Source of the DNA: Ralstonia pickettii DTP0602
Lineage (GTDB): Bacteria > Pseudomonadota > Gammaproteobacteria > Burkholderiales > Burkholderiaceae
Length of the DNA stretch: 64,000 bases
Direction: 5' to 3'
NCBI GenBank assembly: GCA_000471925.1
Contig: CP006668.1
Span: 2,170,001-2,234,000, forward strand
How positions within the stretch are numbered: the first letter of the stretch is position 1; each line of letters starts with the position of its first letter. The notes beneath the pieces are model-generated. The model was not told where the DNA came from, did not search any database, and saw only the letters and a list, made by a program, of their open reading frames with translations. The position numbers and the translations under genes were made by a program. Shown one piece after another: positions 16,814 through 31,792 of the stretch.

Positions 16814-16847
16814 TCAGGCTGTTGCATCTCGCTAGCTGACTGTGTGC

Positions 16848-16873
16848 CCCCTCTCCCGCTTGCGGGAGAGGGG
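16848..16873. repeat. REP-like hairpin between xsc and pta
   Basis: CCCCTCTCCCGC (16848-16859), a TT loop and GCGGGAGAGGGG (16862-16873) form a perfect 12-bp stem, followed by AGCAAAC. Related copies lie at 2739/4260 (split by the IS), 41029 and 60479. Lying inside an operon, it may lower or protect the flanking message rather than end transcription. Confidence 0.75.
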
Positions 16874-16930
16874 AGCAAACCACCGGCATAGCAAGGGCTT
16901 CGGCCCTTTCTTCATTTCTGAGAGAAAACC

Positions 16931-17965: not shown

Positions 17966-18732
17966 AAGCAGAATTGTTGTTGCCGCTGCTGGGCCTGCAG
18001 GCCCTGCTCGGCGCCGGCACCTATTTCCAGACGGTGACCGGCTTTGGCCTGGGCATGATCGTGATGGGCGCCACCAGCGGGCTGGGCCTGGCGCCGGTGG
18101 CGACCGTGGCCGCGGTGGTGAGCCTGGTCACGCTGGCCAACAGCGCCTGCGCGCTGCCCGGCAAGTTCCAGCATATCGACTGGCGCGCCGTGGGCGCCGC
18201 CGCCATCGGCATCCTGCCGTCGGTGCTGGTCGGCGTGCTGGTGCTGGAGTACCTGAGTTCCAGCGCCGCCACGCTGCTGCAACTGCTGCTCGGCGCGGTG
18301 ATCCTGTACGGCGGCCTGAGCGCCGCGTTCAAGCCCGACCCGCTGCCGCGCCGCTCGGGCGACGGCAGCTTCTTCATGAGCGGGGTCTTCGGCGGGCTGC
18401 TGAGCGGCATGTTCGGCGTGTCCGGGCCGCCGCTGATCTTCCAGTTCTACCGGCAGCCGATGAAGCCGGTAGAAATCCGCTGCGCGCTGATCCTGGTCTT
18501 TACCGTGACTTCCACCGTGCGCACGCTGTTCTCGGCGTGGCAGGGGCAACTGGATGCCACGATCTGGCTGCAGGCCGCGGTCGGGGTGCCGGTGGTGGTG
18601 ATCGCCACGCTGCTGGGGCGGCGTTTTCCGCCGCCGTTTTCGCCGACCACGACGCGGCGGGTGGCGTTCGGGGTGTTGATCGGGATCGGGGTCAGCCTGA
18701 TGTTGCCGGCGATTTCGGGCTGGGTGCGGTAA
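17962..18732 (+). CDS. tauE: TauE/SafE-family sulfite exporter
   Basis: A 256-aa integral membrane protein with about eight helices. The duplicated TauE/SafE motif is visible as GAGTYFQTVTGFGLGMIVMG in the first half and GVFGGLLSGMFGVSGPPLIF in the second. Coupled by ATGA overlap to pta, it is the expected exporter for sulfite released by Xsc. Convergent with the MFS gene at 18779, only 46 bp away. Confidence 0.9.
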   Translation: MKAELLLPLLGLQALLGAGTYFQTVTGFGLGMIVMGATSGLGLAPVATVAAVVSLVTLANSACALPGKFQHIDWRAVGAAAIGILPSVLVGVLVLEYLSSSAATLLQLLLGAVILYGGLSAAFKPDPLPRRSGDGSFFMSGVFGGLLSGMFGVSGPPLIFQFYRQPMKPVEIRCALILVFTVTSTVRTLFSAWQGQLDATIWLQAAVGVPVVVIATLLGRRFPPPFSPTTTRRVAFGVLIGIGVSLMLPAISGWVR

Positions 18733-18778: not shown

Positions 18779-20083
18779 TCAGGCGACCGTCCCCGCCGGC
18801 CGCGCCAGCGGTGCGGCTTCTTCCTGGTCCCCGCCGCCGCCGGCCTGCCCCAGATCCATGCCGGTGGTCTCTGGCAGCAGCACCGCGGCGACCACGACCA
18901 TCGCGTAGCCGACTCCCGCCACGATGGCGATCGCGATCGGCAACGAGGTGTGCCCCGTGCTCAGCCACCCCACCGACAGCGGGAACAGCGAGCCGATCAC
19001 CCGCCCGGCGTTATACGACACGCCATACCCCGTCGCCCGTATATCGTTGGGATAAGACTCGGAGATGGTCGCGCCGATGCCCGCGAACACGCCCTGCATC
19101 AGGATGCCGAGCGGAAAGCCAAGGAACAGCATCGACGTATTCGACACCGGGATCACCATATAGACCAGCGCTGCCAGGAACGCCCCGGCCGCGAAGGCGA
19201 TGTAGGTCAGGCGCCGGCCCCAGCGGTCGGTAGCGTAGGCGCCCGCCACGTAGCCGATCAATGAGCCGATGATGGTAACCGCCAGGTAAGAGCTGGTACC
19301 GAACACCGACAGGCCGCGCTCGGTCTTGAGGAAGGTAGGCAACCACGTGGCGATGGCGTAATACGCACCCAGCATCCCGCCGGAGAGCAGGCTGCACAGC
19401 AAGGTCTTGGACAGCAGCGGCCCGCGGAACAGCCGGCCGAGGCCCGCCAGTGCCGTCCCCTGCCTGCCCGCGGCCCGGGTCTTCAGGAAGATTTCCGGCT
19501 CTTCCAGGTTGCGGCGCAGGTAGACCACCACCAGCGCCGGCAGGATGCCGAGGAAGAAGCAGACTCGCCACGCCGTCTCGGCCGGCAGCACGCTGAAGGC
19601 GATCGCATACACGATGGCCGCCGCACCCCAGCCGAAGGAGTAGCTGCTGGCGGTAAAGCCCGAGTATTTGCCGCGATGGGCCGGGTTGCGGATCATCTCC
19701 GTCACCAGCACCATGCACAGCGACGACTCGCCGCCGAATCCCAGGCCCTGGATCATGCGGAACAGCATCAGCTGCTCCGGTGACTGCGCCAGTCCGCACA
19801 GGAAGCAGGCCCCCGCGAACACCACGATGGTCCAGCGCAGCACCCGCACGCGCCCGTAGCGGTCGGCCAGGATGCCGGCGCCGATCGCACCCACCAGCGA
19901 CGACACCAGCGTCCAGGTGACGATGGCGCCCGCCGTCGACTTGCTCATGCCCCACTGCCCCAGCAGCGTGGAGATGAGGAATGAATAGATCATGAAGTCG
20001 AAGACATCGACCGCATGCCCCAGGAACGCGCCATAAAAGCCCTTGCGCTCCATGCGCGACAAATCACGGAACCAGTCGAACAT
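18779..20083 (-). CDS. MFS permease, metabolite:H+ symporter type, of the amidase operon
   Basis: A 434-aa, 12-helix permease. The MFS loop signatures are GILADRYGRVRVLRW after helix 2 and GAYATDRWGRRLTYIAF in the second half. ERKGFYGAFLGHAVDVFDFMIYSFL is typical of the sugar/aromatic-acid symporter branch. A strong AGGGAGG precedes the ATG at 20083. The amidase gene ends 33 bp upstream on the same strand, so the two likely share the operator at 21699. It probably imports the amidase substrate (inference). Confidence 0.88.
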   Translation of the reverse strand: MFDWFRDLSRMERKGFYGAFLGHAVDVFDFMIYSFLISTLLGQWGMSKSTAGAIVTWTLVSSLVGAIGAGILADRYGRVRVLRWTIVVFAGACFLCGLAQSPEQLMLFRMIQGLGFGGESSLCMVLVTEMIRNPAHRGKYSGFTASSYSFGWGAAAIVYAIAFSVLPAETAWRVCFFLGILPALVVVYLRRNLEEPEIFLKTRAAGRQGTALAGLGRLFRGPLLSKTLLCSLLSGGMLGAYYAIATWLPTFLKTERGLSVFGTSSYLAVTIIGSLIGYVAGAYATDRWGRRLTYIAFAAGAFLAALVYMVIPVSNTSMLFLGFPLGILMQGVFAGIGATISESYPNDIRATGYGVSYNAGRVIGSLFPLSVGWLSTGHTSLPIAIAIVAGVGYAMVVVAAVLLPETTGMDLGQAGGGGDQEEAAPLARPAGTVA

Positions 20084-20116: not shown

Positions 20117-21613
20117 TCAGTTGTTGTAGTCCGCCGGCAAGACAGACGGCCGCGGCGGGGGCCGGAACGCGTAGCCCGCGTCTTCCAGCAGGCTGGCAAA
20201 ACGCAGGGCGGTGAGATCCTGGTAGCGGCCGGCAACGATCTGCACGCCGACCGGGAGGCCGCTAGTGCCGGGGCCGATCGGCGCGACCGCCGAAGGCAGC
20301 CCGCACAGCCCGGAATGGCCAGCCCAGAACAATTGCGTGGTCATCGGCTGCGCGCAGCCGTTGACGGTGACGGTGCGTTGCCAGGGCTCGCCCTCCTCGT
20401 TCAGCGCGAAGGCGGTGGTGGCCGCGGCGGGGCACAGCAGCACGTCATAGGCCGAGAAGAAGCGACGCCAGGCCGCGGCAAAGCGCTCGCGGGCGGCTTG
20501 CAGGCGCAGCCAGTCGCGGTGGCTCAGCGTCGCGCCGGTGTACTGGAGGGTGGCATAGGAATGGTCGTCCGCGGCGGCGGCGGCGCTGTGGGCCAGCGCA
20601 TCGGCATAAGCGGCTTCGTCCATGTGCACCGCGGTGGTGGCCCGCAGCAGGGTCACGTAGACGTACCACAGTTCGGCGGCGTCGAAGTCCGGCCGCACGT
20701 GCAAGTCCACGCGGGCGCCCTGCCCGGCCAGCCAGTGGCCGAGCTGTTCGATCTGCGCGGCGACCTCGCCGTCGGCTTCGGCCTGCGGATGGGTGGGCAG
20801 CACGGCGACGCGGAAGTCAGCCAGCCGGCGGTGCGGGCAAACTGGCAGGTCGAAGCGGTACGCAAGCGCATCGTCGCCGTCGGGGCCGGCGATGGCGCGC
20901 AGCACCGGTTCGAGGTCGCGCGCGCTGCGTGCAAGCGGGCCGGCTACGTTGATGTCCTGTTCGCCGAAGCGGGCCGGACCGGTGCCGTGGCCGGCCAGCG
21001 GCACCAGTCCATGGCTGGGCTTGAGCGCGAAGATGCCGCAGTAATGGGCCGGATTGCGCAGCGAGGAGCCGATATCGGATCCGACATCGAAATACGACAG
21101 GCCGGCACACACCGCCGCCGCGCTGCCGCCGGACGAGCCGCCCGGCGTGCGCGACGGATCGTGCGGATTGCGGGTGGTGCCGTAGATGGCGTTGTAGCTC
21201 TGCCAGTCGCGCAGGCCAAGCGGGACGTTGGTCTTGCCGAGCAGCACGGCGCCGGCCTCGCGCAGGCGCTGCACCACTACGGCGTCGCGCTGGGCCGCGC
21301 GGGCGTGCAAGGCCGGATTGCCGCAAGTGGTCGGCCAGCCGGCGACGTCAAACGATTCCTTGACCGAGAACGGCACACCATCGAGCACGCCGCGCGACTG
21401 CCCCGCCCTGCGGCGCCGGTCGCTTTCCAGCGCGGCGGCGCGGGTGGCACCAAAGTCCGACAGCACCAGCGCATTGATGACGCCGTGCCAGTCGCGCCAG
21501 GCCGCCTCGCAGGCGTCCACCAGTTCCACCGAAGAGACCTGGCCGGCAGCGAGCTGCTGTGCCACCTCCCATAGCGGCGGAAAACCGCCGGCACTCCGGT
21601 CAGGCAGGTTCAC
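20117..21613 (-). CDS. Amidase signature family hydrolase
   Basis: A 498-aa amidase of usual length. The Ser-cisSer-Lys triad is K85 (PFSVKESFD), S160 in TPGGSSGGSAAAV and S184 in GSDIGSSLRNPAHYCG; the spacing (75 and 24) fits the family. It hydrolyses a C-N amide bond; the substrate is unknown. The start is GTG at 21613, with AGGA upstream. A GGTATAC-type operator lies 86 bp before the start, shared with the HDO operons, so its substrate may feed the same pathway. Confidence 0.9.
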   Translation of the reverse strand: MNLPDRSAGGFPPLWEVAQQLAAGQVSSVELVDACEAAWRDWHGVINALVLSDFGATRAAALESDRRRRAGQSRGVLDGVPFSVKESFDVAGWPTTCGNPALHARAAQRDAVVVQRLREAGAVLLGKTNVPLGLRDWQSYNAIYGTTRNPHDPSRTPGGSSGGSAAAVCAGLSYFDVGSDIGSSLRNPAHYCGIFALKPSHGLVPLAGHGTGPARFGEQDINVAGPLARSARDLEPVLRAIAGPDGDDALAYRFDLPVCPHRRLADFRVAVLPTHPQAEADGEVAAQIEQLGHWLAGQGARVDLHVRPDFDAAELWYVYVTLLRATTAVHMDEAAYADALAHSAAAAADDHSYATLQYTGATLSHRDWLRLQAARERFAAAWRRFFSAYDVLLCPAAATTAFALNEEGEPWQRTVTVNGCAQPMTTQLFWAGHSGLCGLPSAVAPIGPGTSGLPVGVQIVAGRYQDLTALRFASLLEDAGYAFRPPPRPSVLPADYNN

Positions 21614-21698
21614 GTTGATTCCTTGTCGTTATCCGCGCCAGCAATGGGACGCGGTGGGGGGGTATAGGACAGGCTTCGGGAAGTGCTGCGCTTGCGTT

Positions 21699-21712
21699 GG
21701 TATACTATATTC
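21699..21712. promoter_or_regulatory. GGTATAC operator before amidase-MFS
   Basis: GGTATACTATATTC; an identical 14-mer occurs in inverted orientation at 29075-29088 before the transporter-ferredoxin operon. Candidate site for the GntR/FCD regulator encoded at 22299-23006. GGTATA units are the known recognition element of another FCD regulator, NanR. Confidence 0.65.
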
Positions 21713-21868
21713 ACTCTCGCGCAGAGAGCAAGACGAATATGGGCGCGCGTGCCGGCGCGCTGGACAGCGCAGCGGTGGAGTGGACAGCTGGGGAGAGCCG
21801 TCGGCGGGCAGGCCGCGCGCCGGGAGGCAGCGGCGGCGCGGCGGCGCCGCCGTGTCAATCAGGCTGGA

Positions 21869-22045
21869 TCAGCAATGGCCACGGTTCGGCGTGCGGCCGC
21901 CAAGGGCCACGAGGAAGCGGCCGATATCGCGCAGGCGTAGCGGCAGCAGCGGCGTCGCATGGCGGACGGCATCGCGCGCGGCAAAGTGGCGCAACAGTTG
22001 CTGGCCGACGGATTGCGAGAGATAGCATTGCTCGGGCGACTGCAT
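21869..22045 (-). CDS. Possible 58-aa hypothetical protein
   Basis: A short frame beginning MQSPEQCYLSQSVGQQLLRH and ending with GGRTPNRGHC. AGGGA lies a normal distance before the ATG, codon third positions are GC-rich like the neighbours, and a GGTATAC-type site lies 25 bp upstream. The middle, LLPLRLRDIGRFLVALGG, is leucine- and arginine-rich and could be a helix. I recognise no family, and a frame of this size can arise by chance in high-GC DNA, so the call is tentative. It occupies part of the 685-bp gap between the amidase and gntR genes; I see no other gene there. Confidence 0.35.
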   Translation of the reverse strand: MQSPEQCYLSQSVGQQLLRHFAARDAVRHATPLLPLRLRDIGRFLVALGGRTPNRGHC

Positions 22046-22069
22046 GGTAAATCCCTATTGATCTGGAAT

Positions 22070-22083
22070 GCCTACAGTATACC
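22070..22083. promoter_or_regulatory. GGTATAC operator upstream of the small ORF
   Basis: The reverse complement GGTATACTGTAGGC matches the 21699 site at 11 of 14 positions. It lies in the gap between the amidase and gntR genes. Confidence 0.5.
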
Positions 22084-22298
22084 TAAGTTGGTGCAATGCG
22101 TCATGACGGCGCATGCAATGCCCAATTGCCGGGCATGCAACGAAAGGGGAAGAGAACCAGGAAAGTACCGACGCGCGCGGTAACGCGGCTGGACATCCGG
22201 CACGGCGTACGCCGCACCAAATGGAGAGAGGCCTACTGCAAGAACGTCGGACGGGAGCGGCCAGCGATCAGTTTGCCCGCAAGCCGGGCACGACGCCC

Positions 22299-23006
22299 TC
22301 AGGCCGCCTCTGCCCTGCCCTGCCCGTCCACCGGCAAGTCTGCTGCCTTGGCCGCACTGTAGACATGGCGCGCGGCCAGCAGCGCGGCAAGGTCGGCGTC
22401 TCCCGCGATCACGGCCTGCAGGATCTGGGCGTGCTCGTCCCAGTTCTGGCGCGCGCGCACCACGTTGGCCGGTCCGAACAGCACCGCGGTGCGCTCGCGC
22501 AGCGAACGCATCATTTCCTGCAGCACGCTGTTGGCCGCGATGGTGCCGAGCACTTCATGGAAGCGGGTATTGAGGGCAAGCAGCTCATCCGCGCGGCCCT
22601 GCGCGGCGGCATCCATGCCCTGGCGCAGCACGGTTTCCAGTTCCGCCACCAGCGCCGGGTCGCGGCGCTGCGCGGCGAGCTTGGCGTTCAAGCCTTCCAG
22701 CGTGGCGCGCACCTCTACCATCTCGCGCGCGATCACCGGCGACAGGCTGGCCACCGTCGCGCCGCGGCGCGGCTCGATTACCACCAGGCCTTCGCTGGCC
22801 AGCGCGCGCAGCGCTTCGCGCACCGGGATGCGCGACACGCCCAGTTCGGCCGACAGCTTGTTTTCCACCAGCCGTTCGCCTGGCGCGTACTTCCCGTTCA
22901 GGATGCCTTCGCGCAGCTTGTCGGTGACAAGGGCGAACAGCGGCGAGTGGCTGGCACCGAGGCTCAGCGGCTCGGCGGGCGCGGCAGGAGATGGAGTGAG
23001 GGACAT
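22299..23006 (-). CDS. GntR-family (FCD) regulator of the HDO island
   Basis: A 235-aa FadR-subfamily regulator. The winged helix covers about 25-90 (LREGILNGKYAPGERLVENKL, then SRIPVREALRALASEGLV), and the FCD ligand domain about 95-215, with metal-binding-type residues in RFHEVLG and the HxxIL region. Two GTATACC elements (23045 and 23063, 18 bp apart) lie just upstream, which suggests autoregulation. Similar sites precede every operon from 21.6 to 29.1 kb, so it is the probable local repressor (inference). Confidence 0.9.
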   Translation of the reverse strand: MSLTPSPAAPAEPLSLGASHSPLFALVTDKLREGILNGKYAPGERLVENKLSAELGVSRIPVREALRALASEGLVVIEPRRGATVASLSPVIAREMVEVRATLEGLNAKLAAQRRDPALVAELETVLRQGMDAAAQGRADELLALNTRFHEVLGTIAANSVLQEMMRSLRERTAVLFGPANVVRARQNWDEHAQILQAVIAGDADLAALLAARHVYSAAKAADLPVDGQGRAEAA

Positions 23007-23037
23007 GAGTCGGCAAAGGCGTAAGCGGAAAGGCTGG

Positions 23038-23069
23038 CGTTATTGTATACCAGCCGGTCCCTGTATACC
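23038..23069. promoter_or_regulatory. Paired GTATACC operator before gntR
   Basis: GTATACC at 23045-23051 and again at 23063-23069, as direct repeats 18 bp apart, 39-63 bp upstream of the gntR start. Their reverse complements match the GGTATAC consensus at 10 and 8 of 14 positions. Position fits autoregulation. Confidence 0.6.
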
Positions 23070-23077
23070 GCCATGTC

Positions 23078-24076
23078 TTAACAATACTGGAAGGTGAAGC
23101 TGTCCGCATAGATGTGATCCGAACTTGCCCCGCGCCTGAGGAAAGCGGCACGGGCGTCACGGATCATGTCAGGCGAGCCGCACAGGTAGATGGCGTGCTC
23201 GCTGAGATCGCCGAGATCAGCCAGCGCCGCGTCGTGCACATAGCCGCGCCTGCCCTGCCAGTCGGCGCCGGCGCGGGACAGCACGGGAATGTACTGGAAG
23301 TCGTAAAGGCGTTCGCCCCATGTCGGGATATCGGTATGCAGATACAGGTCTTCCGGCTGGCGCATGCCCCAGTAGAGCGACACCGGCGGGCAGTCGGGAT
23401 CGTCCATCAGCGATTCCAGTATCGCCTTGATCGGCGCCAGCCCGGTGCCGGTGGCCACCATCAGCAGCGGCCGGTAATCCTTGGCGCGGTAGAAGAAGGT
23501 GCCGAGCGGCAGCTCTATGTCAATCGCGTCGCCCGCCTTCATTTGCGGCAGGATGCCGTCGGTGAAGGCACCGCCCGGGATGCGCCGCACATGCAGGTCG
23601 ACCCGTCCGTCGCGCGGCACCGAGGCCATCGAGAAGCTGCGCGCGCGCCCGTCGTCGCTCAGCAGCTTCAGGTACTGGCCGGGGCGATAGTCGAGCGCGC
23701 CAGCGTCCGGCACCTCCAGTTCGATATGCAAGACGTCAGCCGACAACGGCCGCACCGCCTGCACTAGCGCCCGATAACGCGCCGGCTCGGCGCACGCCTC
23801 GTCCTCGCGCGCCGTGCTGATGACGAGGTCGCCCAGCGGCTGCGCCTGGCAGGCCAGCGCATAGCCGGCAGCGGCCTCATCCGGCGCCAGGCCGAACGGT
23901 TCCTCGTCATACCGCACCTGCCCGTCAAGCAGCCGGATGCGGCAGGTGCCGCAGCCACCCAGCTGGCAGTCGTGCGGCAAGGCAATGCTGGCGCGCCCGG
24001 CAGCCTGCAGCAGGGTCTCGCCCCGTTCGACAAAAAAGACCTGCTGCGTTTCGGCGATCTGGATGCGGTATGACAT
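23078..24076 (-). CDS. 2Fe-2S/FAD/NAD(P)H oxidoreductase (oxygenase reductase type)
   Basis: A 332-aa electron-transfer protein. An N-terminal plant-type ferredoxin domain has Cys37, Cys42, Cys45 and Cys76 (DCQLGGCGTC, LACQ). The FAD domain has RPGQYLKL and RSFSMAS, and the nicotinamide domain LLMVATGTGLAPIKAILE and YLCGSPDM. This layout matches reductases of ring-hydroxylating and phenol hydroxylases and CDP-6-deoxyglucoseen reductase. It is the last gene of the HDO operon, 52 bp after the GlcG-like gene, and no Rieske or phenol hydroxylase lies nearby, so the HDO protein is its likely partner (inference). Confidence 0.9.
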   Translation of the reverse strand: MSYRIQIAETQQVFFVERGETLLQAAGRASIALPHDCQLGGCGTCRIRLLDGQVRYDEEPFGLAPDEAAAGYALACQAQPLGDLVISTAREDEACAEPARYRALVQAVRPLSADVLHIELEVPDAGALDYRPGQYLKLLSDDGRARSFSMASVPRDGRVDLHVRRIPGGAFTDGILPQMKAGDAIDIELPLGTFFYRAKDYRPLLMVATGTGLAPIKAILESLMDDPDCPPVSLYWGMRQPEDLYLHTDIPTWGERLYDFQYIPVLSRAGADWQGRRGYVHDAALADLGDLSEHAIYLCGSPDMIRDARAAFLRRGASSDHIYADSFTFQYC

Positions 24077-24128
24077 GGAACCTCCGCGCGTGTTCGAAAT
24101 GGTGGCGGGCGGCCGGCGCCCGCCTGGC

Positions 24129-24608
24129 TTACTTCTTGATGTCGGCCTGCACCAGCACCTTCAGGTCCTGCGGCGCCAGCAGCTCGGCCAGCGCCTGCAG
24201 CGCGGCCAGCCCGGCCTGCGTATCCTGCTCGCCGTTGCCGCCGGACAGGCCGATGCCGCCGATCACCTCGTCGTTGACCACGATCGGGAAGCCGCCCACG
24301 AACGCGGCGAACTTGCCCTCGAAGCTCCACTGGATGCCGAACGCCTCATTGCCCGGCAGCGCCGGCCCGTTGGGCGGCGTGGTGAACAGGTGTGTGGAGC
24401 GCTTGTGCCCCGCGGCCGTGAACGCCTTGTTCCATGCGATCTGCGGCCCGGTGATGCGGGCGCCGTCCATGCGCTCGAGCGCGAGCGGATAGCCGCCCTC
24501 GTCGACCACGCAGATCGATTCCAGCACGCCGATTTCCTCCGAGCGCCGGATCGCCGCGGCAACCATGTGGCGCGCTTCGCGCAGTTCCAGCTTGATGGCT
24601 TTTTTCAT
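24129..24608 (-). CDS. GlcG/HbpS-family protein (DUF336)
   Basis: A 159-aa protein with the GlcG/HbpS fold: an N-terminal helix (LELREARHMVAAAIRRSEEIG), VVDEGGYPLALERMDGA and the glycine-rich GGFPIVVNDEVIGGIGLSGG. Members bind heme or cobalamin or act as small accessory or lyase-like proteins in catabolic operons. It lies 28 bp after the aldehyde dehydrogenase gene. No specific role can be assigned; a ligand-binding or lyase step on the HDO product is possible. Confidence 0.85.
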   Translation of the reverse strand: MKKAIKLELREARHMVAAAIRRSEEIGVLESICVVDEGGYPLALERMDGARITGPQIAWNKAFTAAGHKRSTHLFTTPPNGPALPGNEAFGIQWSFEGKFAAFVGGFPIVVNDEVIGGIGLSGGNGEQDTQAGLAALQALAELLAPQDLKVLVQADIKK

Positions 24609-24636
24609 GTCTCTTGACTCCTTGTAACGGCCGGGC

Positions 24637-26082
24637 TCAGGCGCCCCGATAGACCGTCTTGACCTGCGTATAGAACTCCAGCCCGGTGCGGCCCGACTCG
24701 CGGAAGGTCGAGGTGCTTGAGCGCTTCACCCCGCCGAACGGCGCGTTGACCAGATTGCCGGTGGTGGTGCGGTTGACCTTGACCGTGCCCGCCTCGATGT
24801 CCGTGGCGAAGTGGTGGATGTAGCGCGGGTTGCTGGTGACGATGGCCGCGGCCAGCCCGTACTCGGTGTCGTTGGCCTTGGCGATGGCGTCGGCGTAGTC
24901 GGTGAAGCCCAGGATGGCGATCACCGGCCCGAAGATCTCCTCGCGCGCGATCCGCATCTGCTGGGTCACGTCGGTGAAAACGGTCGGCGCCACGTAGTAG
25001 CCCTTGTCAAAGTCGCCGCCGGCGAGGCGCGCGCCGCCGCACAGCAGCGTCGCTTCGGACTTGCCGATATCGATATAGCGCAGCACCGTTTCCAGCTGCT
25101 TGTGCGAGGCCAGCGGCCCGAGGTCCATCCCGGCCGTCATGCCGCTGCCGACCTTGAGCGTGGCGACCTTCGCCAGCAACCGCTCGGTGTACGCGGCCTT
25201 GACGGACTCGGCCACCAGCACGCGGCTGGTGCCGGTACACGCCTGCCCCGACAGCGAGAAGCCGCCCTTGATGGTCAGATCGACGGCGCGGTCGAGGTCG
25301 GCATCTTCCATCACGATCAGCGGATTCTTGCCGCCCAGCTCCATCTGCGTGCGCGTGGTCAGCGGCACGGCGCGGTGGATCTGCTCGCCGGCGCGCGACG
25401 AGCCGGTGAACGAGATCGCCCGCACAGCCGGCGCCTCGGTGATGGCCGGGCCGATCTCGGCCGCGCTGCCGGTGATGAAGTTCAGCACGCCCTTGGGCAG
25501 GCCGGCCTTGACCAGTGCCTCGGCCAGCCGGTAGCCCGACAGCGGCGCCTCGGACGACGGCTTGAACACCACCGTGTTGCCGGTCACCAGCGCCGGGGCG
25601 ATCTTGCGCGCCGGGATTGACACCGGGAAATTCCACGGCGCGATCACCGTCACCACGCCCAGCGGCTCGCGCTGGCTGTAGACGAGCTGGTCGGGGTCGT
25701 CGTTCGGGTACACCTCGCCGGTGAAGGTCTGCCCTTCCACCGCGTAGAACCGCAGCGTCTGGGCCGAGCGCAGCACCTCGTCGCGAGCCAGTGCCAGCGC
25801 CTTGCCTTCCTCGCGGGTCAGCTCGGCGGCAATGCTGTCGGCATTGGCTTCAAGATGATCGGCGGCGCGGTTAAGGATGGCGGCGCGCTTGCCGACCGGA
25901 GTTTTCTTCCAGCCGGCGAACGCTGCCGCCGCGGCGGCGACGGCCGCCTGCGCGTCCACCGCGGAAGACGCCTGGAAGCGGCCCACGATATCGGCGGTAT
26001 CGGCCGGGTTGACATTGTCGAAGGTACGGCCCGACTGGCAGGCCGTCCATTCGCCGTCGATATGGTTGAGGAATACGGTCAT
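24637..26082 (-). CDS. NAD(P)-dependent aldehyde dehydrogenase
   Basis: A 481-aa ALDH with the oxyanion Asn151 in APWNFPVSIP, catalytic Glu248 in QMELGGKNPLI, nucleophile Cys282 in SGQACTGTSR, and EEIFGPVIAI. It resembles the succinic/alpha-ketoglutaric semialdehyde branch, which favours short aliphatic or dicarboxylic semialdehydes. It lies 25 bp after the HDO gene, so the pair suggests that the oxidase releases an aldehyde that is then oxidised to an acid. Substrate identity is inferred only. Confidence 0.9.
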   Translation of the reverse strand: MTVFLNHIDGEWTACQSGRTFDNVNPADTADIVGRFQASSAVDAQAAVAAAAAAFAGWKKTPVGKRAAILNRAADHLEANADSIAAELTREEGKALALARDEVLRSAQTLRFYAVEGQTFTGEVYPNDDPDQLVYSQREPLGVVTVIAPWNFPVSIPARKIAPALVTGNTVVFKPSSEAPLSGYRLAEALVKAGLPKGVLNFITGSAAEIGPAITEAPAVRAISFTGSSRAGEQIHRAVPLTTRTQMELGGKNPLIVMEDADLDRAVDLTIKGGFSLSGQACTGTSRVLVAESVKAAYTERLLAKVATLKVGSGMTAGMDLGPLASHKQLETVLRYIDIGKSEATLLCGGARLAGGDFDKGYYVAPTVFTDVTQQMRIAREEIFGPVIAILGFTDYADAIAKANDTEYGLAAAIVTSNPRYIHHFATDIEAGTVKVNRTTTGNLVNAPFGGVKRSSTSTFRESGRTGLEFYTQVKTVYRGA

Positions 26083-26107
26083 CGTCGATCCGGTTGCGCG
26101 GCGGCGC

Positions 26108-26839
26108 TCAGGCGGCCATGTCGAGTTCGGGCAGCGGCAGTTCTTTCTCGACGTAGTCGTGATAGAGCGCCGTCGTATACAGCAGCCGCATCTGCGCGCC
26201 GATCTCGCAGATCTTCAGGCAGCGCTGCTGCAGTTCCGGCGTGTTGGCGTGCTCGAGCACGATCTGGTAGCCGCGCTCGCCGTGGATCTCGTCCGAGACG
26301 ATATGCAGGTCGAAGAATTCGACTTCCTCGTCGGTGAACTGGTACTTGTCGCGCAGCGTCGGGGTCTGCTTGCGGTAGATCGACGGCACCTGTGACTCCA
26401 GCCCGACTACCAGGCCGGCCACCGCGACGATGGGGTCTTCACGCATGGCCACGGCGTAGCACCAGCTCTGCAGGCCGCGCGTGGTGGGCGACATATTGTC
26501 CGGGTCGATCACGCGCTCGCGGGTGGTGCCGCAGGCTTCCGCAAAGCGGATCAGCAGGTCGGTATGGCGGTCGCCGCCGATCTCTTCCTCATACATATTG
26601 GCGAGCAGGAAATCCTTGGCTTCGGTATAGCGGTCCGGCGTGCGCGCGTAGATGTAGCCCAGGTAATCCGCGAACGGGCCGACGTAGTGATAGTGGTTCT
26701 CGGCCCAGCGTGCGAGATGGGCGCGGGTCAGCTTGCCGCTGGCCCAGGCCACGCTGAACGGCGCCTTGTTGGCGCTCTTGCCTTTGATGGCTTCTTCGAG
26801 GGCGGCACGGAATGCTTCGCGGTTCATCAGTTCGGCCAT
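26108..26839 (-). CDS. Heme-oxygenase-like diiron oxidase/oxygenase (HDO; CADD/PqqC/TenA-like)
   Basis: A 243-aa all-helical protein of the TenA/PqqC/CADD superfamily. All six ligands of the HDO diiron site can be placed: E85-x6-H92 in EEEIGGDRH, E148 in GLESQVPS, and H179-x3-D183-x2-H186 in LHIVSDEIH. This is the same pattern as CADD. Related enzymes (CADD, UndA, BesC, SznF) cleave C-C bonds or hydroxylate N with O2. Start is the ATG at 26839 after AGGAG; a longer frame from 26875 has no ribosome site. First gene of a four-gene operon with ALDH, GlcG-like and reductase genes. Substrate unknown. Confidence 0.85.
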   Translation of the reverse strand: MAELMNREAFRAALEEAIKGKSANKAPFSVAWASGKLTRAHLARWAENHYHYVGPFADYLGYIYARTPDRYTEAKDFLLANMYEEEIGGDRHTDLLIRFAEACGTTRERVIDPDNMSPTTRGLQSWCYAVAMREDPIVAVAGLVVGLESQVPSIYRKQTPTLRDKYQFTDEEVEFFDLHIVSDEIHGERGYQIVLEHANTPELQQRCLKICEIGAQMRLLYTTALYHDYVEKELPLPELDMAA

Positions 26840-26925
26840 GGCGGAGGCTCCTGGTTGGCGATGGGGGGCAATCAAGTGGGTTGGATGCCGGGGTCTCTTC
26901 GTGAATCGATCGGCCCCTGCATTGT

Positions 26926-26940
26926 TGTATACTATATACA
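26926..26940. promoter_or_regulatory. GGTATAC-type palindromic operator before the HDO operon
   Basis: TGTATA-CTA-TATACA is a perfect 6-bp inverted repeat with a 3-bp spacer, the most symmetric member of the set. It matches the 21699 site at 12 of 14 positions and lies 87 bp upstream of the HDO start. Confidence 0.7.
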
Positions 26941-27015
26941 GTTAGTCAGCGACAACAAGGGCTTCGTTGACTAATCACGTAAGTGTTTACCCGGCGGCGG
27001 ACCGGGCAATGCGAC

Positions 27016-27948
27016 TCAGGCCGCGCGACGCTCCGCCGCGCCAGTGATCCGCGACCACGCGAAGCCCGCCAGCGCCACGTCCTCCAGCCCCACGCCGACT
27101 GACTTGTAGATCAGGATGTCGTCGTCCCGCTGGCGCGGCGACACCTTGCCCAGGACCACGTCGCCCAGTTCGACGATCTTCTCGTGCGGAAGGGCCTGCG
27201 GATCGGCCAGCACGATGTCGCCGGCCTCGCGCACGGACTGCGGGCGCCACTCGACCACCACGGCGGCGGCGCGGCGCAGCGCGGTGTCGTCCAGTTCACG
27301 CGTATGCGGCAGGCTGGAGCCGATGGCGGCAACGAAGGCGCCCGGCCGCAGCGACGCGCCCGCGAACAGCGGCGTTGTCGCGCGCGACGCCGTGACGACG
27401 ATATCGGCCTCGGCCACGGCAGCATCGGGCTCTGTCAGCGCGACCGGGATGCCGCACAGGGCCGACAGCCGCTCCGGCATGCCTTCATCGGCGTGCGGAT
27501 CAGACACCAGGATGCGCTCCAGCCCGAGCGTCGCGCTAAGCTGGCGCGCGTGTTGCACGCCCTGCATGCCGGCGCCGAACAGCGCCAGCGTGCGCGCACC
27601 GGGCCGAGCCAGCCGCTGCGCCGCAAGCGTGGTGCAGGCGGCCGTACGCAGGCGCGTGATGGCGCCGGCGTCGAACGAAGCTAGCGGGCGCCCGTCGTCG
27701 GCCGAGAAGATCAGGATGACAAAGGAGAACTGGCCGTTGATGGTCGTGTAGACCTTGGCGCCCGCCACGCCCTGCTGCGGGATCACCGCGCCCAGCGTGG
27801 ACAGCTTGACGCCGCCCGCCTCGGTGCGGATGCGCTCCTGCATCGCGGCGTCGCCACGCCCGAAGCTGGAAAACGCTGCCTCCATGACCTGCCGGGCATC
27901 CTCCGGGCTGACGTGGGCATCGATCATCGCGTCTGTGATGTGCTGCAT
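27016..27948 (-). CDS. Ornithine cyclodeaminase/mu-crystallin family protein
   Basis: A 310-aa NAD(P)-binding protein of usual length. The substrate domain has GAKVYTTINGQ with the conserved Lys; the Rossmann motif is LALFGAGMQGVQHARQL. GAFVAAIGSSLPHTRELDD is also a family signature. Members include ornithine cyclodeaminase, ketimine reductases and amino-acid dehydrogenases, acting on alpha-amino acids or cyclic imines. It lies 60 bp after the TauE-like gene on the same strand, likely one operon. Its presence suggests that an amino acid or imine appears in the pathway (inference). Confidence 0.87.
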   Translation of the reverse strand: MQHITDAMIDAHVSPEDARQVMEAAFSSFGRGDAAMQERIRTEAGGVKLSTLGAVIPQQGVAGAKVYTTINGQFSFVILIFSADDGRPLASFDAGAITRLRTAACTTLAAQRLARPGARTLALFGAGMQGVQHARQLSATLGLERILVSDPHADEGMPERLSALCGIPVALTEPDAAVAEADIVVTASRATTPLFAGASLRPGAFVAAIGSSLPHTRELDDTALRRAAAVVVEWRPQSVREAGDIVLADPQALPHEKIVELGDVVLGKVSPRQRDDDILIYKSVGVGLEDVALAGFAWSRITGAAERRAA

Positions 27949-28008
27949 GGGGACTCCGCTGGTTGGGATGGGGACAGGGAAAGAGGGAGATCTCTGCGGG
28001 CCAGAGCC

Positions 28009-28839
28009 TCACGAAAAGGCAGTGCGGCCGAGCACACCGAGCGCCCCGGCAGCGCAAAGACCCAGCAGCAGCCGGCGCACCGCCCCGGGCGAAACGTGCC
28101 CGCGCAAGCGGTTCGACAGCGCGAAGCCGGCAAACAGGAATGGCGCAAGGGCCGCCGCCAGCACCAGTTGCGGCAAACCGAAGCGCCCCGCCATCGCCAG
28201 CATGGAGAGCGACAGCACTGCGCCGCCGGACAGGATGCAACCCATCGTGGCGCGCAGCGGCGCCGGCGCCATGTGCTGCATGACCAGCGCGAACGGGGGC
28301 GCACCGGCCGAAGTGATCGTTCCCATGAAGCCCGACAGGGTGCCGGCGATGGTCACATTGGGCGAGGTCGGCAGCAGGCGCCAGCCCAGCAGGCTCAGCG
28401 CCACGGCGGCAAGTATCGACACCGAGAACAGCACCCCCAGCGGACCCGGCGCCAGCCACGCCATGGTCAGCACTGCCGCCGCCCCGCCGAGCGCGCGCCC
28501 GATCAGGGCGAAGCCTGCGATGCGCCACGCGATCGCCTCCCGCTCACGCAGCGCGCCCATCAAGGAGAGACAGCAGCCCATCGCCAGCAGCGGTCCCGGC
28601 ACGAGGTCGGGGAAGAAGATTGCCCCCAGCGGTGCCGAAAGCATCGCAAAGCCGATCCCGCCCACGCCTTGCAGGCAGGCGCCCACGAGGATGAGCGCAC
28701 CCATCCATAGATAAGTGGTGACGGAGAGCCCGGCGGGAAGCAGGGAGAACAACGTGGCGGGCAAGGCAGAGGTCATGGCGGCAGGTCGAAATAGCGGCTT
28801 GGAAGGCGCGAATGAAGCGCGTCGGACGGACGGCCTCAT
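28009..28839 (-). CDS. TauE/SafE-like membrane permease of the HDO island
   Basis: A 276-aa membrane protein with about eight helices and the family glycine motif GACLQGVGGIGFAMLSAPLG; the second-half motif is weaker (GTLSGFMGTITSAGAPPFALVM). The ATG at 28839 is chosen because AGGAGG lies 10 bp upstream; a GTG three codons earlier abuts the ribosome site. TauE-type proteins move sulfite or other organic anions. It is only a remote paralogue of the exporter at 17962 and no sulfonate gene adjoins it, so a different anion is likely. A GGTATAC-type operator lies 58 bp upstream. Confidence 0.82.
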   Translation of the reverse strand: MRPSVRRASFAPSKPLFRPAAMTSALPATLFSLLPAGLSVTTYLWMGALILVGACLQGVGGIGFAMLSAPLGAIFFPDLVPGPLLAMGCCLSLMGALREREAIAWRIAGFALIGRALGGAAAVLTMAWLAPGPLGVLFSVSILAAVALSLLGWRLLPTSPNVTIAGTLSGFMGTITSAGAPPFALVMQHMAPAPLRATMGCILSGGAVLSLSMLAMAGRFGLPQLVLAAALAPFLFAGFALSNRLRGHVSPGAVRRLLLGLCAAGALGVLGRTAFS

Positions 28840-28896
28840 AAGGGGCACGCCTCCTGCTTATATTGCTCGCACTTCGTGTGGAAGTCGCCGCAAAAC

Positions 28897-28910
28897 GGTA
28901 TACAGTCTAC
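28897..28910. promoter_or_regulatory. GGTATAC operator before the TauE-like gene
   Basis: GGTATACAGTCTAC matches the 21699 site at 10 of 14 positions, 58 bp before the TauE-like start in the 316-bp divergent spacer shared with the transporter operon. Confidence 0.55.
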
Positions 28911-29074
28911 ATGTCACAGCGGAGCCGAGCAAACGGTTTCATCCCGTCTGCGCACCACTTAAAGGACGTTCGCACCGTCGCAGGGCCAATATATGTGCGG
29001 CGTTCGGGCAACTTGCACCAGTCTGGTATAGGCGTAAGTCCGGATGAAAAACCTGTTGTCGCGAGTTCGCACTG

Positions 29075-29088
29075 GAATATAGTATACC
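29075..29088. promoter_or_regulatory. GGTATAC operator before the transporter-ferredoxin operon
   Basis: GAATATAGTATACC is the exact reverse complement of the 14-bp site at 21699-21712. It ends 67 bp before the transporter start. Confidence 0.65.
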
Positions 29089-29093
29089 GACAC

Positions 29094-29120
29094 TGGGTTC
29101 CAGAACTGGTACGGAACCCA
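29094..29120. promoter_or_regulatory. Inverted repeat in the transporter leader
   Basis: TGGGTTCC (29094-29101) and GGAACCCA (29113-29120) are perfect 8-bp inverted arms with an 11-bp spacer, 35 bp before the start codon. It could be a second operator or a leader hairpin. No T-run follows, so it is not an intrinsic terminator. Confidence 0.45.
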
Positions 29121-29155
29121 GGGCCCCACAACCCCTCCGCCCCCAGGGAGTCTTC

Positions 29156-30694
29156 ATGTCACAACAAGTCGTGATCGGTGCCGCGCACTGGATCTATCTG
29201 TCAGGGGTAGCAGTCATCGTGTTGACGATGATCCTGCGCGCCAATGTTGTCGTCCCTTCCATCGTCGGCACCGCCCTGGTCGTGTTTGCGCTCACCGGCA
29301 GCCCGGTTTCGGCGCTGGGCGGAGTGTTTTCCGCGAGCCTGGTTGCCGCCAAGGAGCTGTTCAATATCTTCCTGGTGATCGCGTTCATGACGGCGCTGCT
29401 CAATGCGCTCAAGACGCTGCGCTCCGACATCCGCATGGTCGAGCCCTTCCGCGTGGTGATGAAGAACGGGCATTCGGCGTTCTTTATCTTGGCGGGCATC
29501 ACCTACGTCATCTCCCTGTTCTTCTGGCCGACCCCGGCCGTGCCGCTGGTATCGGCGATCTTGCTGCCGGCCGCCATTGCGGCGGGGCTGCCGCCGCTGG
29601 CGGGTGCGATGGCGATCGCCATCGCCGGCCAGGGCATGGCGCTGTCGTCCGACTATGTGATCGGCGTAGCCCCCGGCATCAGTGCCAAGGCGGCCGGCGC
29701 AGCGGTGAGCGCCGCGGTGGTGGCCGATCGCGCGCTGGCGCTGTCGCTCATCACCGGCACTATTGCGCTGTGCCTGGCCTACCTGTCGATGCGCAAGCAC
29801 ATCGTGCCCGCCTGCGGCACCCTGCTCGACCGCTGGCAGGCGCGCGCCGGCGGCACCGCCGAGGCGCTGGAAGGCGGCGGCACCTTCGACAAGGCCGAGA
29901 TCGCCAAGGGCACCGCCCACGCCGAGCCGCTGGCCACCGACAGCAATATCGAAGCAAGCCTGTCGATGGTGGCCCGGCGCCGGGTGAAGTGGTCGAAATG
30001 CTTCGCGATCGTGACGCCCGTCGCCTTCCTCGCCGTAGTCGCGGTCATGGTGCTGCCCAAGCTCGGCACTGGCGTGCAGGACCTCAAGGGCGGCGATGCG
30101 GCGGCGCTGGTCGGCGGCGTCGCGGCGGTGCTGATGATGCTGGCGACGCTGGCCGCCGAAGGCCCGCGCCGCATGCTCGACGTGTGCCCGGAGCACATCA
30201 CCGACGGCTTCGTCTTCGCCTTCAAGGCGATGGGCTCGGTGCTGCCGATCGCCGGCTTCTTCTTCGTCGGCGCCGGCGAAACCGCCGCGCAGATCCTGGG
30301 CCTGCCGCCGGGCAAGGCGCCGAGCCTGCTGTTCGAACTGATCCAGGCCTACCAGCACATGATCCCGGACAACCACGTGCTGGTCGCCTTCGGCGTGCTG
30401 CTGGTCGGCATGATCACCGGCATCGACGGCTCGGGTTTCGCGGGCCTGCCGCTGACCGGCACGCTGGCCGGCGCCCTCGGCCCGGTGGTCGGCTTCGACC
30501 CGGCCACGCTGGCCGCGGTGGGCCAGATGGGCGCGGTCTGGACCGGCGGCGGCACGCTGGTGGCGTGGTCGTCGCTGATCGCGGTGGCCGGCTTCGCCCG
30601 GGTGCCGGTGCTGGAAGCGGTGCGCGCGCTGCTGATCCCGGTGCTGATCGGGCTGGCCTGCTCCACCGTGGCCGCCATGGTGTTGTGGTCGTAG
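29156..30694 (+). CDS. 12-helix membrane transporter, possibly GntP/ion-transporter superfamily
   Basis: A 512-aa hydrophobic protein with about 12 helices and a cytoplasmic loop near 215-275 (KHIVPACGTLLDRWQARAGG to ARRRVKWSK). Repeated half-motifs (FFWPTPAVPLVSAILLPAAI; DGSGFAGLPLTGTLAGALG) and re-entrant-like glycine segments resemble GntP/DcuC-type carriers of organic acids, but I cannot place it firmly. GGGAG precedes the ATG. It heads an operon with two ferredoxins and an orphan protein under a GGTATAC operator, so it may import the pathway substrate. Confidence 0.75.
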   Translation: MSQQVVIGAAHWIYLSGVAVIVLTMILRANVVVPSIVGTALVVFALTGSPVSALGGVFSASLVAAKELFNIFLVIAFMTALLNALKTLRSDIRMVEPFRVVMKNGHSAFFILAGITYVISLFFWPTPAVPLVSAILLPAAIAAGLPPLAGAMAIAIAGQGMALSSDYVIGVAPGISAKAAGAAVSAAVVADRALALSLITGTIALCLAYLSMRKHIVPACGTLLDRWQARAGGTAEALEGGGTFDKAEIAKGTAHAEPLATDSNIEASLSMVARRRVKWSKCFAIVTPVAFLAVVAVMVLPKLGTGVQDLKGGDAAALVGGVAAVLMMLATLAAEGPRRMLDVCPEHITDGFVFAFKAMGSVLPIAGFFFVGAGETAAQILGLPPGKAPSLLFELIQAYQHMIPDNHVLVAFGVLLVGMITGIDGSGFAGLPLTGTLAGALGPVVGFDPATLAAVGQMGAVWTGGGTLVAWSSLIAVAGFARVPVLEAVRALLIPVLIGLACSTVAAMVLWS

Positions 30695-30779
30695 GCGGCC
30701 GCAAGTGCCGCCAGGCCGGACAGATTTCCCCGACTTCTCTTGACGCCGGGTGGGCGCCCCACCCGGCAGGAACCGCACG

Positions 30780-31130
30780 ATGCCGACAGTCACTTTCCAC
30801 AAGCAGGGCCAGACCTTCGTCGACGAGGTCAAGCCCCAGACCAACCTGGTCGTCCGCGCCGGGATTCGCCAGTTTCCCTACCCCAACCTGCGTTACGAGT
30901 GCGGCATGGGCAAGTGCTCCAAGTGCGCCTGCCGCGTGATCGCCGGCGCCGAACACCTGCCGCCGCCCAACTGGAAGGAAAAGAAGCAGCTCGGCGACCG
31001 GCTCGAACAGGGTTACCGGCTGGCCTGCCAGCTCTGGATCGAGCACGACATCGAACTGGCGCAGGACGACCTGACCAGCGCGGCCCCGGCCACCGCCGGC
31101 ACCCTGGCCACGGCCAGCGCGGACGCCTGA
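30780..31130 (+). CDS. Small [2Fe-2S] ferredoxin
   Basis: A 116-aa plant-type ferredoxin domain with Cys41, Cys46, Cys49 and Cys83 (ECGMGKCSKC, RLACQ). An extra Cys51 follows the cluster loop. An insertion, PPPNWKEKKQLGDRLEQG, precedes the last ligand; its KEKK core recurs in the second ferredoxin at 31490, so the two are probably paralogues. AGGA precedes the ATG at 30780. Two-gene spacing downstream is one base (stop 31130, next ATG 31132). Likely electron carrier between the reductase at 23078 and an oxygenase such as the HDO protein (inference). Confidence 0.85.
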   Translation: MPTVTFHKQGQTFVDEVKPQTNLVVRAGIRQFPYPNLRYECGMGKCSKCACRVIAGAEHLPPPNWKEKKQLGDRLEQGYRLACQLWIEHDIELAQDDLTSAAPATAGTLATASADA

Positions 31131-31131: not shown

Positions 31132-31449
31132 ATGTTCGTCCTCCTCACCAGCCGCCCCGGCCAGTTCCGCACCGAGCCCACCGCGGGCATGACCGCGGTC
31201 GAAGCGTACGACTACGTCTTCTATGGCAAGCGCACCGCACGCTTTGTCATCGCCGAACTGGCCGCCGATACCAAGGTGCGGGTGCTGGAAGAAACGCCGC
31301 CCGGCATCGTCAACCTGGTGTCGACCAAGTTCCTGGACAAGTACGCCACGCTGGAGGCCGCCCGCGCCGCGCTACGCGAGCTGGCCAGCTTCGGCAGCAT
31401 GGACATCGCCCTGGTGCCCACGCCGGTCGCCGTATGCGGGCGGTGCTGA
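31132..31449 (+). CDS. Orphan 105-aa protein between two ferredoxin genes
   Basis: A soluble 105-aa protein beginning MFVLLTSRPGQFRTEP, with VEAYDYVFYGKRTARFVIAE, VRVLEETPPGIVNLVSTKFL and a helix DKYATLEAARAALRELASFG. It ends in CGRC. I recognise no family. It starts one base after the first ferredoxin and is followed 40 bp later by the second, so all three are almost certainly co-translated. Size and context would fit a small regulatory or coupling protein of an oxygenase system, but that is speculation. Confidence 0.75.
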   Translation: MFVLLTSRPGQFRTEPTAGMTAVEAYDYVFYGKRTARFVIAELAADTKVRVLEETPPGIVNLVSTKFLDKYATLEAARAALRELASFGSMDIALVPTPVAVCGRC

Positions 31450-31489: not shown

Positions 31490-31792
31490 ATGATCCAGAT
31501 CACCTTCCTCACCAACCACGGCAAGACGGTCAGCGCGCCGGTCAACAGCAACCTGCTGCGCGTGTCGCTGCGCGAGCAAGGTGGCATCCCCTTCAAGTGC
31601 GGCGGCGGTTTGTGCGGCACCTGCAAGTGCCGCATCGAAAAGGGCCACGAGCACACCGACGCGGTCAAGCCGAAGGAAAAGAAGCTACTGGCGGAGGCGG
31701 AGCTGGCCGCCGGGTTCCGGCTGGCCTGTCAGACTTTTATCAATGGCGACATCGCGGTGTCGTGGCAGCCGAAGGAGGCGGTGCGCGCGTGA
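31490..31792 (+). CDS. Small [2Fe-2S] ferredoxin, second copy
   Basis: A 100-aa plant-type ferredoxin with Cys37, Cys42, Cys45 and Cys80 (KCGGGLCGTC, RLACQ). It shares the KPKEKKLLAEAELAAG insertion type with the ferredoxin at 30780. It is the last gene of the transporter operon. Having two ferredoxins plus a ferredoxin-containing reductase in one locus suggests a dedicated electron chain. Confidence 0.87.
   Translation: MIQITFLTNHGKTVSAPVNSNLLRVSLREQGGIPFKCGGGLCGTCKCRIEKGHEHTDAVKPKEKKLLAEAELAAGFRLACQTFINGDIAVSWQPKEAVRA

Follow-up and report, generated by a model that had tools for sequence, protein, structure and literature searches.

A 64-kb stretch of Ralstonia pickettii DTP0602 (bases 2,170,001-2,234,000 of contig 2 in a genome of 8,125,850 bases), referred to as the window, was found to contain a gene island whose operons are preceded by the palindrome GTATAC. 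In our judgement the island probably constitutes one substrate-inducible catabolic regulon, in which a GntR/FCD protein, most likely a repressor, would act at tandem operators and a multicomponent oxygenase pathway would be driven. Observed directly were the operator, its conservation, its near-restriction to island genes, the co-occurrence of the regulator gene gntR with the oxygenase gene hdo, the gene content and the metal-ligand set of the oxygenase. From left to right, the minus strand of the island encodes an MFS transporter, an amidase, the product of a small open reading frame (ORF), the GntR protein, a reductase, an HbpS-like protein, an aldehyde dehydrogenase (aldh), a heme-oxygenase-like diiron-type oxidase/oxygenase (HDO; gene hdo), a protein of the ornithine cyclodeaminase family (OCD) and a TauE-family protein. 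On the plus strand follow a membrane protein that is probably a transporter and is so called below, a ferredoxin (fdx1), orf105 and a second ferredoxin (fdx2).

GTATAC starts at positions 21700, 22077, 23045, 23063, 26175, 26927, 28898 and 29082 of the window, and none was found in the rest of the 64 kb outside 21700-29087. Shuffled windows yielded 1.66 ± 1.32 copies, and none of 100 shuffles reached 8. The whole genome holds 140 copies of GTATAC versus 678 of the reversed word CATATG. At the genome rate 0.12 copies are expected per 7.4 kb, which makes the probability of at least 8 copies about 1e-12, or about 1e-9 after multiplication by the count of genomic windows of this size. A first-pass annotation, made from the sequence alone, had reported seven copies in this region and none elsewhere in the window. 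The confinement was confirmed and the clustering also held against the genome-wide frequency, while the count had to be raised to eight. The core that had been missed (26175..26180, minus strand) sits inside the hdo coding sequence, in the codons CTG TAT ACG (Leu-Tyr-Thr) of a conserved LLYTT. A coding match of this kind is present in another locus too; the core was rejected as an operator and is very probably a coincidence. Because it is coding, seven candidate operators are left.

On the minus strand these comprise the amidase-MFS operator (21699..21712; GAATATA-GTATAC on that strand), the small-ORF operator (22070..22083, with its core at 22077-22082), the two gntR cores 23045 and 23063 (23045..23068, within the 71-bp gap from the reductase stop to the gntR start), the hdo-operon operator (26927..26939; GTATATA-GTATAC) and the tauE-ocd operator (28898..28910; GTAGACT-GTATAC, one mismatch to the extended form given below). 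The transporter-ferredoxin operator (29075..29088; GAATATA-GTATAC) lies on the plus strand. The sites at 21699 and 29075 are identical over 14 bp, as had been claimed, the 14-mer GGTATACTATATTC being found at 21699 on the plus and at 29075 on the minus strand; the opposite strands fit sites that serve genes on opposite strands. A perfect inverted repeat had also been described at 26926. Its 6-bp arms are indeed perfect (TGTATA...TATACA), yet they stand around 3 bp, and there is no continuous perfect palindrome. Distances from core to start codon, with start codons of our own choice, were 87 bp for the amidase gene, 32 for the small ORF, 39 and 57 for gntR, 59 for tauE and 69 for the transporter gene. 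For hdo the distance was 88 bp from the ATG at 26839 and 52 bp from an upstream TTG. The starts at ATG 26839 (hdo) and ATG 28839 (tauE) are most likely because purine-rich stretches precede them; AGGAG stands ahead of the hdo ATG, and the annotated hdo orthologue of Caballeronia also has 243 codons.

Scanning a collection of 84,980 species with the HDO protein gave 464 relatives, of which the best 80 were kept, representing 79 distinct loci. These were 24 Achromobacter, 23 Cupriavidus, 12 Paraburkholderia, 8 Bradyrhizobium and 8 Pandoraea loci plus 4 singletons (one Bordetella, one Burkholderia, one Pseudolabrys metagenome-assembled genome (MAG) and one Rhizobiales MAG). The loci span Beta- and Alphaproteobacteria and are kin, so that the counts represent non-independent events. 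Using a range of at most 250 bp upstream, with coding cores kept in and genes without a covered upstream stretch omitted, GTATAC was found upstream of hdo in 79/79, of the amidase gene in 36/36, of tauE in 41/41 and of the transporter gene in 60/69 cases. Lower counts were obtained for gntR (31/69), ocd (14/35), aldh (28/77) and fdx1 (19/76). After removal of coding cores no GTATAC remained upstream of the genes for MFS (0/36), reductase (0/68), HbpS (0/77) and fdx2 (0/76), in total 0/257. Applying a crude operon rule, by which a gene counts as internal if a same-strand island gene ends at most 200 bp upstream, a core was present at 226 of 250 apparent operon heads versus 78 of 564 apparent internal genes. 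All 64 palindromic hexamers were ranked within 200 bp upstream of each gene, and GTATAC came first before hdo (79/79; next TATATA with 23/79), amidase, tauE and transporter. Taken together, the 79 loci (1.39 Mb) contain 415 GTATAC versus 74 CATATG. Gene order varies by genus: in Achromobacter aldh lies behind the transporter gene and is preceded by a GTATAC site of its own, and such a separate site was also found for fdx1 in several Paraburkholderia loci and for OCD in others.

The operator is more than the hexamer alone and consists of the palindromic core plus a weaker copy 7 bp away. In 650 flanks (325 distinct sites in both orientations), a second GTATAC was enriched at exactly ±7 bp, with a mean match of 3.00 of 6 positions versus 1.55 in shuffled flanks (z 33) and matches of at least 5/6 in 148 flanks versus 3.5 expected. 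The next offset, ±5, overlaps the core and reached 1.90 versus 1.35 (z 15) with no match of at least 5; offsets ±9 and ±14 gave z values of about 5. The exact tandem GTATACNGTATAC (GTATAC-N-GTATAC) occurs 19 times in the 79 loci. Pooling all sites left little information at positions beyond about 7 bp from the core. The extended form GWATAYNGTATAC has 3 mismatch-free occurrences in its own 8.13-Mb genome, at 21700, 26927 and 29075, none of them outside the island; tolerating one mismatch raises the number to 8 places, of which 4 belong to the island. In 15 other island-bearing genomes the strict form was detected in 13, at 27 distinct places by our tally, 22 of them inside the island. Two further sites accompany moved or duplicated pieces. 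Genome G255 carries hdo and an amidase-MFS pair (70% and 84% identical) on different contigs, and the pair (L108, G255:C85:66000-74000) has kept an operator, GAATATAGTATAC. A Bordetella genome has an additional gntR (57%) and an additional transporter gene (66%) with an operator copy between them (L112, G405:C3:694500-702500). The operator thus travels with operon heads when operons relocate, even onto another contig, and the 22 sites inside the island together with these two indicate that the regulon is essentially restricted to the island gene set.

The gene gntR (22299..23006, minus strand) encodes an N-terminal GntR winged helix (PF00392, 3.5e-20) and a C-terminal FCD domain (PF07729, 6.9e-25), which places the protein in the FadR/FCD subfamily of the GntR superfamily. 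GTATAC before the operon heads, read as GT-AT-AC, has the GT-N(2-3)-AC palindrome of this subfamily. Inside the loci gntR was present in 69 of 79 cases with 50-99% identity. Of the 10 genomes without gntR in the locus 9 carry it at 53-59% identity; in at least one of these (L033) it sits just past the fetched flank. Among 60 Burkholderiaceae genomes, including that of the window, 6 have hdo (E 1e-100 or better), and gntR was found at E 2.4e-59 or better in precisely these 6, the next best match in any genome being 39% identical (E 2e-29); in this search larger genomes were scored on their 47 best first-look candidates only. Judged by this co-occurrence, the GntR product is the likely ligand of the operator. 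The first-pass annotation had named this protein as ligand and had proposed a multi-operon regulon with one operator per operon. These proposals are all supported by footprinting in the 79 loci, the genome counts of the extended operator and the co-occurrence, and conservation upstream of orthologues was borne out for hdo, amidase and tauE without exception.

In a draw across the phylum hdo was found in 5 of 398 genomes at E 1e-40 or better. One of these five belongs to another family, and its HDO is only 47% identical. There, too, hdo is a neighbour of an HbpS-like gene and of a gene for a GntR with 57% identity; hdo and a gene for a Rieske protein are divergent, with two cores close to their starts. 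The Rieske-domain gene of the most distant HDO locus (L088:7929-8762; 277 amino acids, no other Pfam match) is divergent from hdo. Within the GntR protein 44% of the positions are invariant in the winged helix versus 29% in the FCD domain. The histidines H150, H192 and H214 of the latter are invariant in 71 gntR rows and probably form a metal site. The two cores before gntR point to possible autoregulation. As only 31 of 69 loci have a gntR site, autoregulation through such a site would not be universal.

The best conserved island protein is the HDO (26108..26839, minus strand; 243 amino acids; PF14518, 9.4e-37), with a median identity of 91% to the window's protein (85-100% across the 79 loci), compared to 52-85% for the others. 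An alignment of 201 rows was built from the window, the 79 loci, the best 120 of 1350 database matches and one 45-47% homologue. E97, H104, E160, H191, D195 and H198 (E..H..E..H..D..H, the 3H/3C ligands) were invariant in 201 of 201 rows; these ligands were assigned by alignment to 4-aminobenzoate synthases and from known ligand positions. Among solved structures, 4-aminobenzoate synthases and PqqC come closest. Both identities were rejected, with 94.8 bits for CADD / self-sacrificing para-aminobenzoate (pABA) synthase (TIGR04305, cut-off 200) and 53.3 bits for PqqC (TIGR02111, cut-off 240). Genomically, hdo is tied to the reductase, the two ferredoxins and orf105, and the aldehyde dehydrogenase gene is adjacent. 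The NAD(P)H reductase (23078..24076, minus strand) combines [2Fe-2S], FAD and NAD domains (PF00175, PF00111, PF00970) and is BenC-like, scoring 194 bits against the BenC model, below its cut-off of 430. By gene content, the island appears to encode a heme-oxygenase-like diiron oxygenase system of several components that feeds an aldehyde dehydrogenase.

Binding, repression, effector, electron path and reaction are steps that we infer from these observations. The GntR/FCD protein, most likely a repressor, would bind the GTATAC core and its 7-bp copy ahead of each operon and would leave the operator once a small carboxylate-like effector occupied the FCD domain; the effectors of the FadR subfamily are typically carboxylic acids, as summarized in PMC4494728. 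Derepression would supply the importer and in Cupriavidus also the amidase and the MFS carrier, freeing the true substrate from amide conjugates. Electrons would pass from NADH via the BenC-like reductase and one or both [2Fe-2S] ferredoxins to the diiron protein, which would oxidise the substrate to an aldehyde. The aldehyde dehydrogenase would convert this aldehyde to the acid, and the OCD-family reductase and the exporter would deal with side products.

The substrate is perhaps a small carboxylate. The hydrolase of the island varies by lineage. An amidase is found in Cupriavidus as well as in Paraburkholderia and Pandoraea loci, and an alpha/beta hydrolase takes its place in the Caballeronia annotation and in a cluster of 9 loci, of which one member was scanned. 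An isochorismatase-type hydrolase is present in the Pseudolabrys MAG, a gamma-glutamyltranspeptidase in C. basilensis (G287). One Rhizobiales locus has an aspartate-dehydrogenase-like gene after the second ferredoxin. A model of the transporter (29156..30694, plus strand; a conserved multi-helix membrane protein without Pfam match) matched MleN in Foldseek with an E value of 6.3e-5 and a probability of 1.00, and VcINDY similarly, at a mean predicted local distance difference test (pLDDT) of only 63; this weak model also resembles TRAP transporters. MleN, DASS and TRAP proteins are grouped as an ion-transporter superfamily. The varied hydrolases, the aspartate-dehydrogenase-like gene and the carboxylate-transporter-like fold of the weak model point to a small carboxylate, often as an amide-type conjugate. 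In this reading the HDO would oxidise the carboxylate to an aldehyde, the last step being what we infer.

Several observations weigh against the proposed regulon or narrow it. Outside the island lie 4 of the one-mismatch places (G000: C1:1410704, C2:1626209, C2:2024090, C2:2889459), and the reversed control pattern gives 3 matches. In the short stretch examined around these four places the only island gene relative was a GntR of 27% identity; the place at C2:2024090 is 4 kb from a 39%-identical GntR paralogue. The strict extended pattern was absent from 2 of the 15 other genomes, and 3 of the 27 strict sites had no island gene nearby. No core was found at 24 of the 250 apparent operon heads, nor within 250 bp upstream of 9 of the 69 transporter genes, and the site of gntR is limited to the loci counted above. 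The 78 internal genes with a core were hdo (23), gntR (22), aldh (21), orf105 (7) and fdx1 (5). The seven orf105 cores, all from Achromobacter (L036, L041, L045, L047, L058, L060, L061), overlap the gene's own start codon and were rejected as operators; the others may mark internal promoters. For other genes GTATAC ranked lower among the palindromes, taking second place at aldh, third at gntR and at ocd, and a place below fifth at fdx1. In one hdo-bearing MAG the best GntR relative reaches only 41%, and the transporter model is poor by its pLDDT.

Alternatively, the operator might be read by another regulator or by several FCD-type GntR paralogues, the island gntR governing only a part. GT-N2-AC palindromes are known for several groups of the FadR subfamily (PMC4494728), 132 further GTATAC words and the 39%-identical paralogue are present in the genome, and gntR lacks a site within 250 bp upstream in 38 of 69 loci. 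We nevertheless regard this explanation as quite improbable: the island gntR tracks hdo through the family sample (larger genomes scored on their 47 best candidates), its own genome has the exact 7-bp tandem nowhere but in the island, and the extra operator of the Bordetella genome is flanked by the additional gntR and transporter genes. Catabolic FCD regulators are mostly repressors, and this weighs against an activator for which the sites, 32-88 bp before the start codons, would be upstream activating sites. Activators such as CitO are described among FCD proteins, whereas NanR on its tandem repeats acts as a repressor (PMC8012715), and an activator appears rather unlikely to us. It is very improbable that the hexamer serves as a promoter element or as some other signal without a regulatory role, conserved by horizontal transfer of one block. 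The high identity of hdo in the 79 loci and its patchy distribution (6 of 60 family and 5 of 398 phylum genomes) do make transfer likely. Still, the motif stays at operon heads while the gene order differs between genera, gntR, reductase, tauE and orf105 have diverged to median identities of 52-62%, and pooled sites are poor in information beyond about 7 bp from the core; the internal-gene control led us to reject a mere promoter element.

For the pathway, the alternative is an HDO that makes or modifies a cofactor or small product like CADD/pABA synthase or PqqC, with the neighbouring genes serving that purpose. Its nearest solved structures are such enzymes, and the HDOs of a 2026 review serve biosynthesis (PMC13108848). 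The protein stays under the curated cut-offs for CADD and PqqC, and importer, amidase, other hydrolases, aldehyde dehydrogenase and a substrate-type GntR would be typical of catabolism, which leads us to regard a non-catabolic HDO as unlikely. The catabolic regulon under a GntR/FCD repressor remains our preferred reading of the island.

The amidase operon consists of the amidase-signature hydrolase gene (20117..21613, minus strand; PF01425, 5.9e-90; NF004816, 729 bits, cut-off 503) and, as second gene, the MFS gene (18779..20083, minus strand; PF07690, 1.8e-43). The small gene (21869..22045, minus strand; 58 amino acids) has homologues in 46 of the 79 loci at E 0.01 or better, including one weak Bordetella match (37%), and a Pfam scan of its product gave no family. 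Its product (GQQLLRHYAARDAVRHATPLxPLR) is conserved in 21 of 23 Cupriavidus loci and also in 24 of 24 Achromobacter loci, where the gene is divergent from hdo; apparently, it is a conserved, real gene. The minus strand further encodes the HbpS/GlcG-like protein (24129..24608; PF03928, 1.1e-31), the aldehyde dehydrogenase (24637..26082; PF00171), whose nearest model, alpha-ketoglutaric semialdehyde dehydrogenases, was matched with 561 bits, below the cut-off of 770, the reductase of the ornithine cyclodeaminase / mu-crystallin family (27016..27948; PF02423, 2.1e-42) and the TauE/SafE-family membrane protein (28009..28839; PF01925, 6.8e-15), probably an anion exporter. On the plus strand, the [2Fe-2S] ferredoxins fdx1 (30750..31130; PF00111, 7.3e-9) and fdx2 (31508..31792; PF00111, 8e-15) flank the conserved 105-residue protein orf105 (31132..31449; model pLDDT 85), for which no Pfam match, no NCBIfam match at E 1e-10 and no clear match in fold searches was obtained. 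An annotated Caballeronia plasmid has the same core of GntR, ferredoxins, "iron-containing redox enzyme", aldehyde dehydrogenase, heme-binding protein, reductase and OCD.

Additional genes were noted beside the island and its relatives. A porin-like gene (recognized by eye and from how a Caballeronia neighbour is annotated) forms a cluster that covers 9 loci, and 7 of its members have a GTATAC close by (e.g., L031:7695-8879, L033:7675-8895, L057:4920-6116). GTATAC was also found near an M20-type amidohydrolase gene (by eye; L049:334-1527), and its cluster of 12 loci has 2 members of this kind. A second hdo is present in Cupriavidus basilensis KF708 (L020:4933-5727; protein identical over 254 residues); a separate GTATAC is near this copy, and the same locus contains a gamma-glutamyltranspeptidase gene. 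A TerC-like membrane protein directly after the transporter (L031:14715-15482, L057:2502-3227, L029:7307-8116) forms a cluster of 7 Paraburkholderia/Burkholderia loci, one member of which was Pfam-scanned, and might have a bearing on the metal supply of the HDO. In the window, the island is adjoined at 14957-18732 by a sulfoacetaldehyde module made up of xsc (TIGR03457, 1076 bits against a cut-off of 676), pta and another gene of the TauE family; 10 of the 79 loci, each from Cupriavidus, have a pta homologue. To the right of the island, CobS- and CobT-like cobaltochelatase genes are located at 31961-34695, likewise in several Cupriavidus loci.

The motif marks out the gene set of an orphan pathway beforehand, including an easily overlooked 58-residue gene and, in one relative, an amidase operon on another contig. 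A reporter behind the operator would be a ready assay for the substrate and should respond to the right compound. Among known regulons, the E. coli NanR sialoregulon is similar in having an FCD-type GntR and one AT-rich operator of tandem repeats that recurs ahead of three operons, all serving a single catabolic pathway, and NanR dimers bind tandem GGTATA repeats offset by about half a helical turn (PMC8012715). Regularly spaced core repeats were likewise found here (second copy at ±7 bp), and the tandem-repeat arrangement bears out this part of the NanR comparison made in the first-pass annotation. The kinship does not extend to orthology, as NCBIfam NanR was matched with 62.1 bits at a cut-off of 260. 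Where NanR reads (GGTATA)3, the island operator has a palindromic GTATAC core and a copy of it 7 bp away. The MFS protein of the island also stays below the sialate symporter models, reaching at best 165 of 553 bits. A palindromic core with a weaker box 7-12 nt from its centre is also described for FadR-subfamily regulons, though neither the regulated genes nor the orthologue group of the island are among those that we found named for them (PMC4494728). Palindrome plus half-site and tandem dimer repeats are thus each already in the literature, separately (PMC4494728, PMC8012715). The best NCBIfam match was the PhnR-type GntR of Burkholderiales (TIGR03338), with 123 bits at a cut-off of 271.5, and the protein was rejected as a PhnR orthologue or equivalogue.

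Concerning the oxygenase, BenABC and glycine betaine monooxygenase use a reductase and ferredoxin-type electron transfer to a terminal oxygenase. The BenC-like reductase recalls the Rieske-type BenABC, but the terminal oxygenase here is a heme-oxygenase-like protein. The three-component monooxygenase of Rhodococcus wratislaviensis reportedly has an oxygenase of another protein fold. This non-heme diiron enzyme is likewise multicomponent and performs terminal hydroxylation of a small compound (PMC7782822). According to the 2026 review, about a dozen HDOs have been validated and are presented as biosynthetic, those studied need no protein effector, MboA needs the redox partner MboB for one step, and ways to deorphanise the remaining HDOs are called for; a term search of its main text gave no ferredoxin (PMC13108848). 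It is conceivable, at slightly less than an even chance, that the island encodes the first catabolic multicomponent HDO, with its own NADH reductase, two ferredoxins, orf105 as a possibly new fold, small-carboxylate degradation by soil bacteria of several genera and an FCD regulator reading a 7-bp tandem. If true, a ferredoxin-driven catabolic HDO would widen this superfamily (PMC13108848). The island protein shares the fold family and the 3H/3C ligand set with known HDOs and would, like MboA, use a redox partner, but differs from the reviewed biosynthetic enzymes by its reductase, two ferredoxins, small protein and degradation-type island (PMC13108848).

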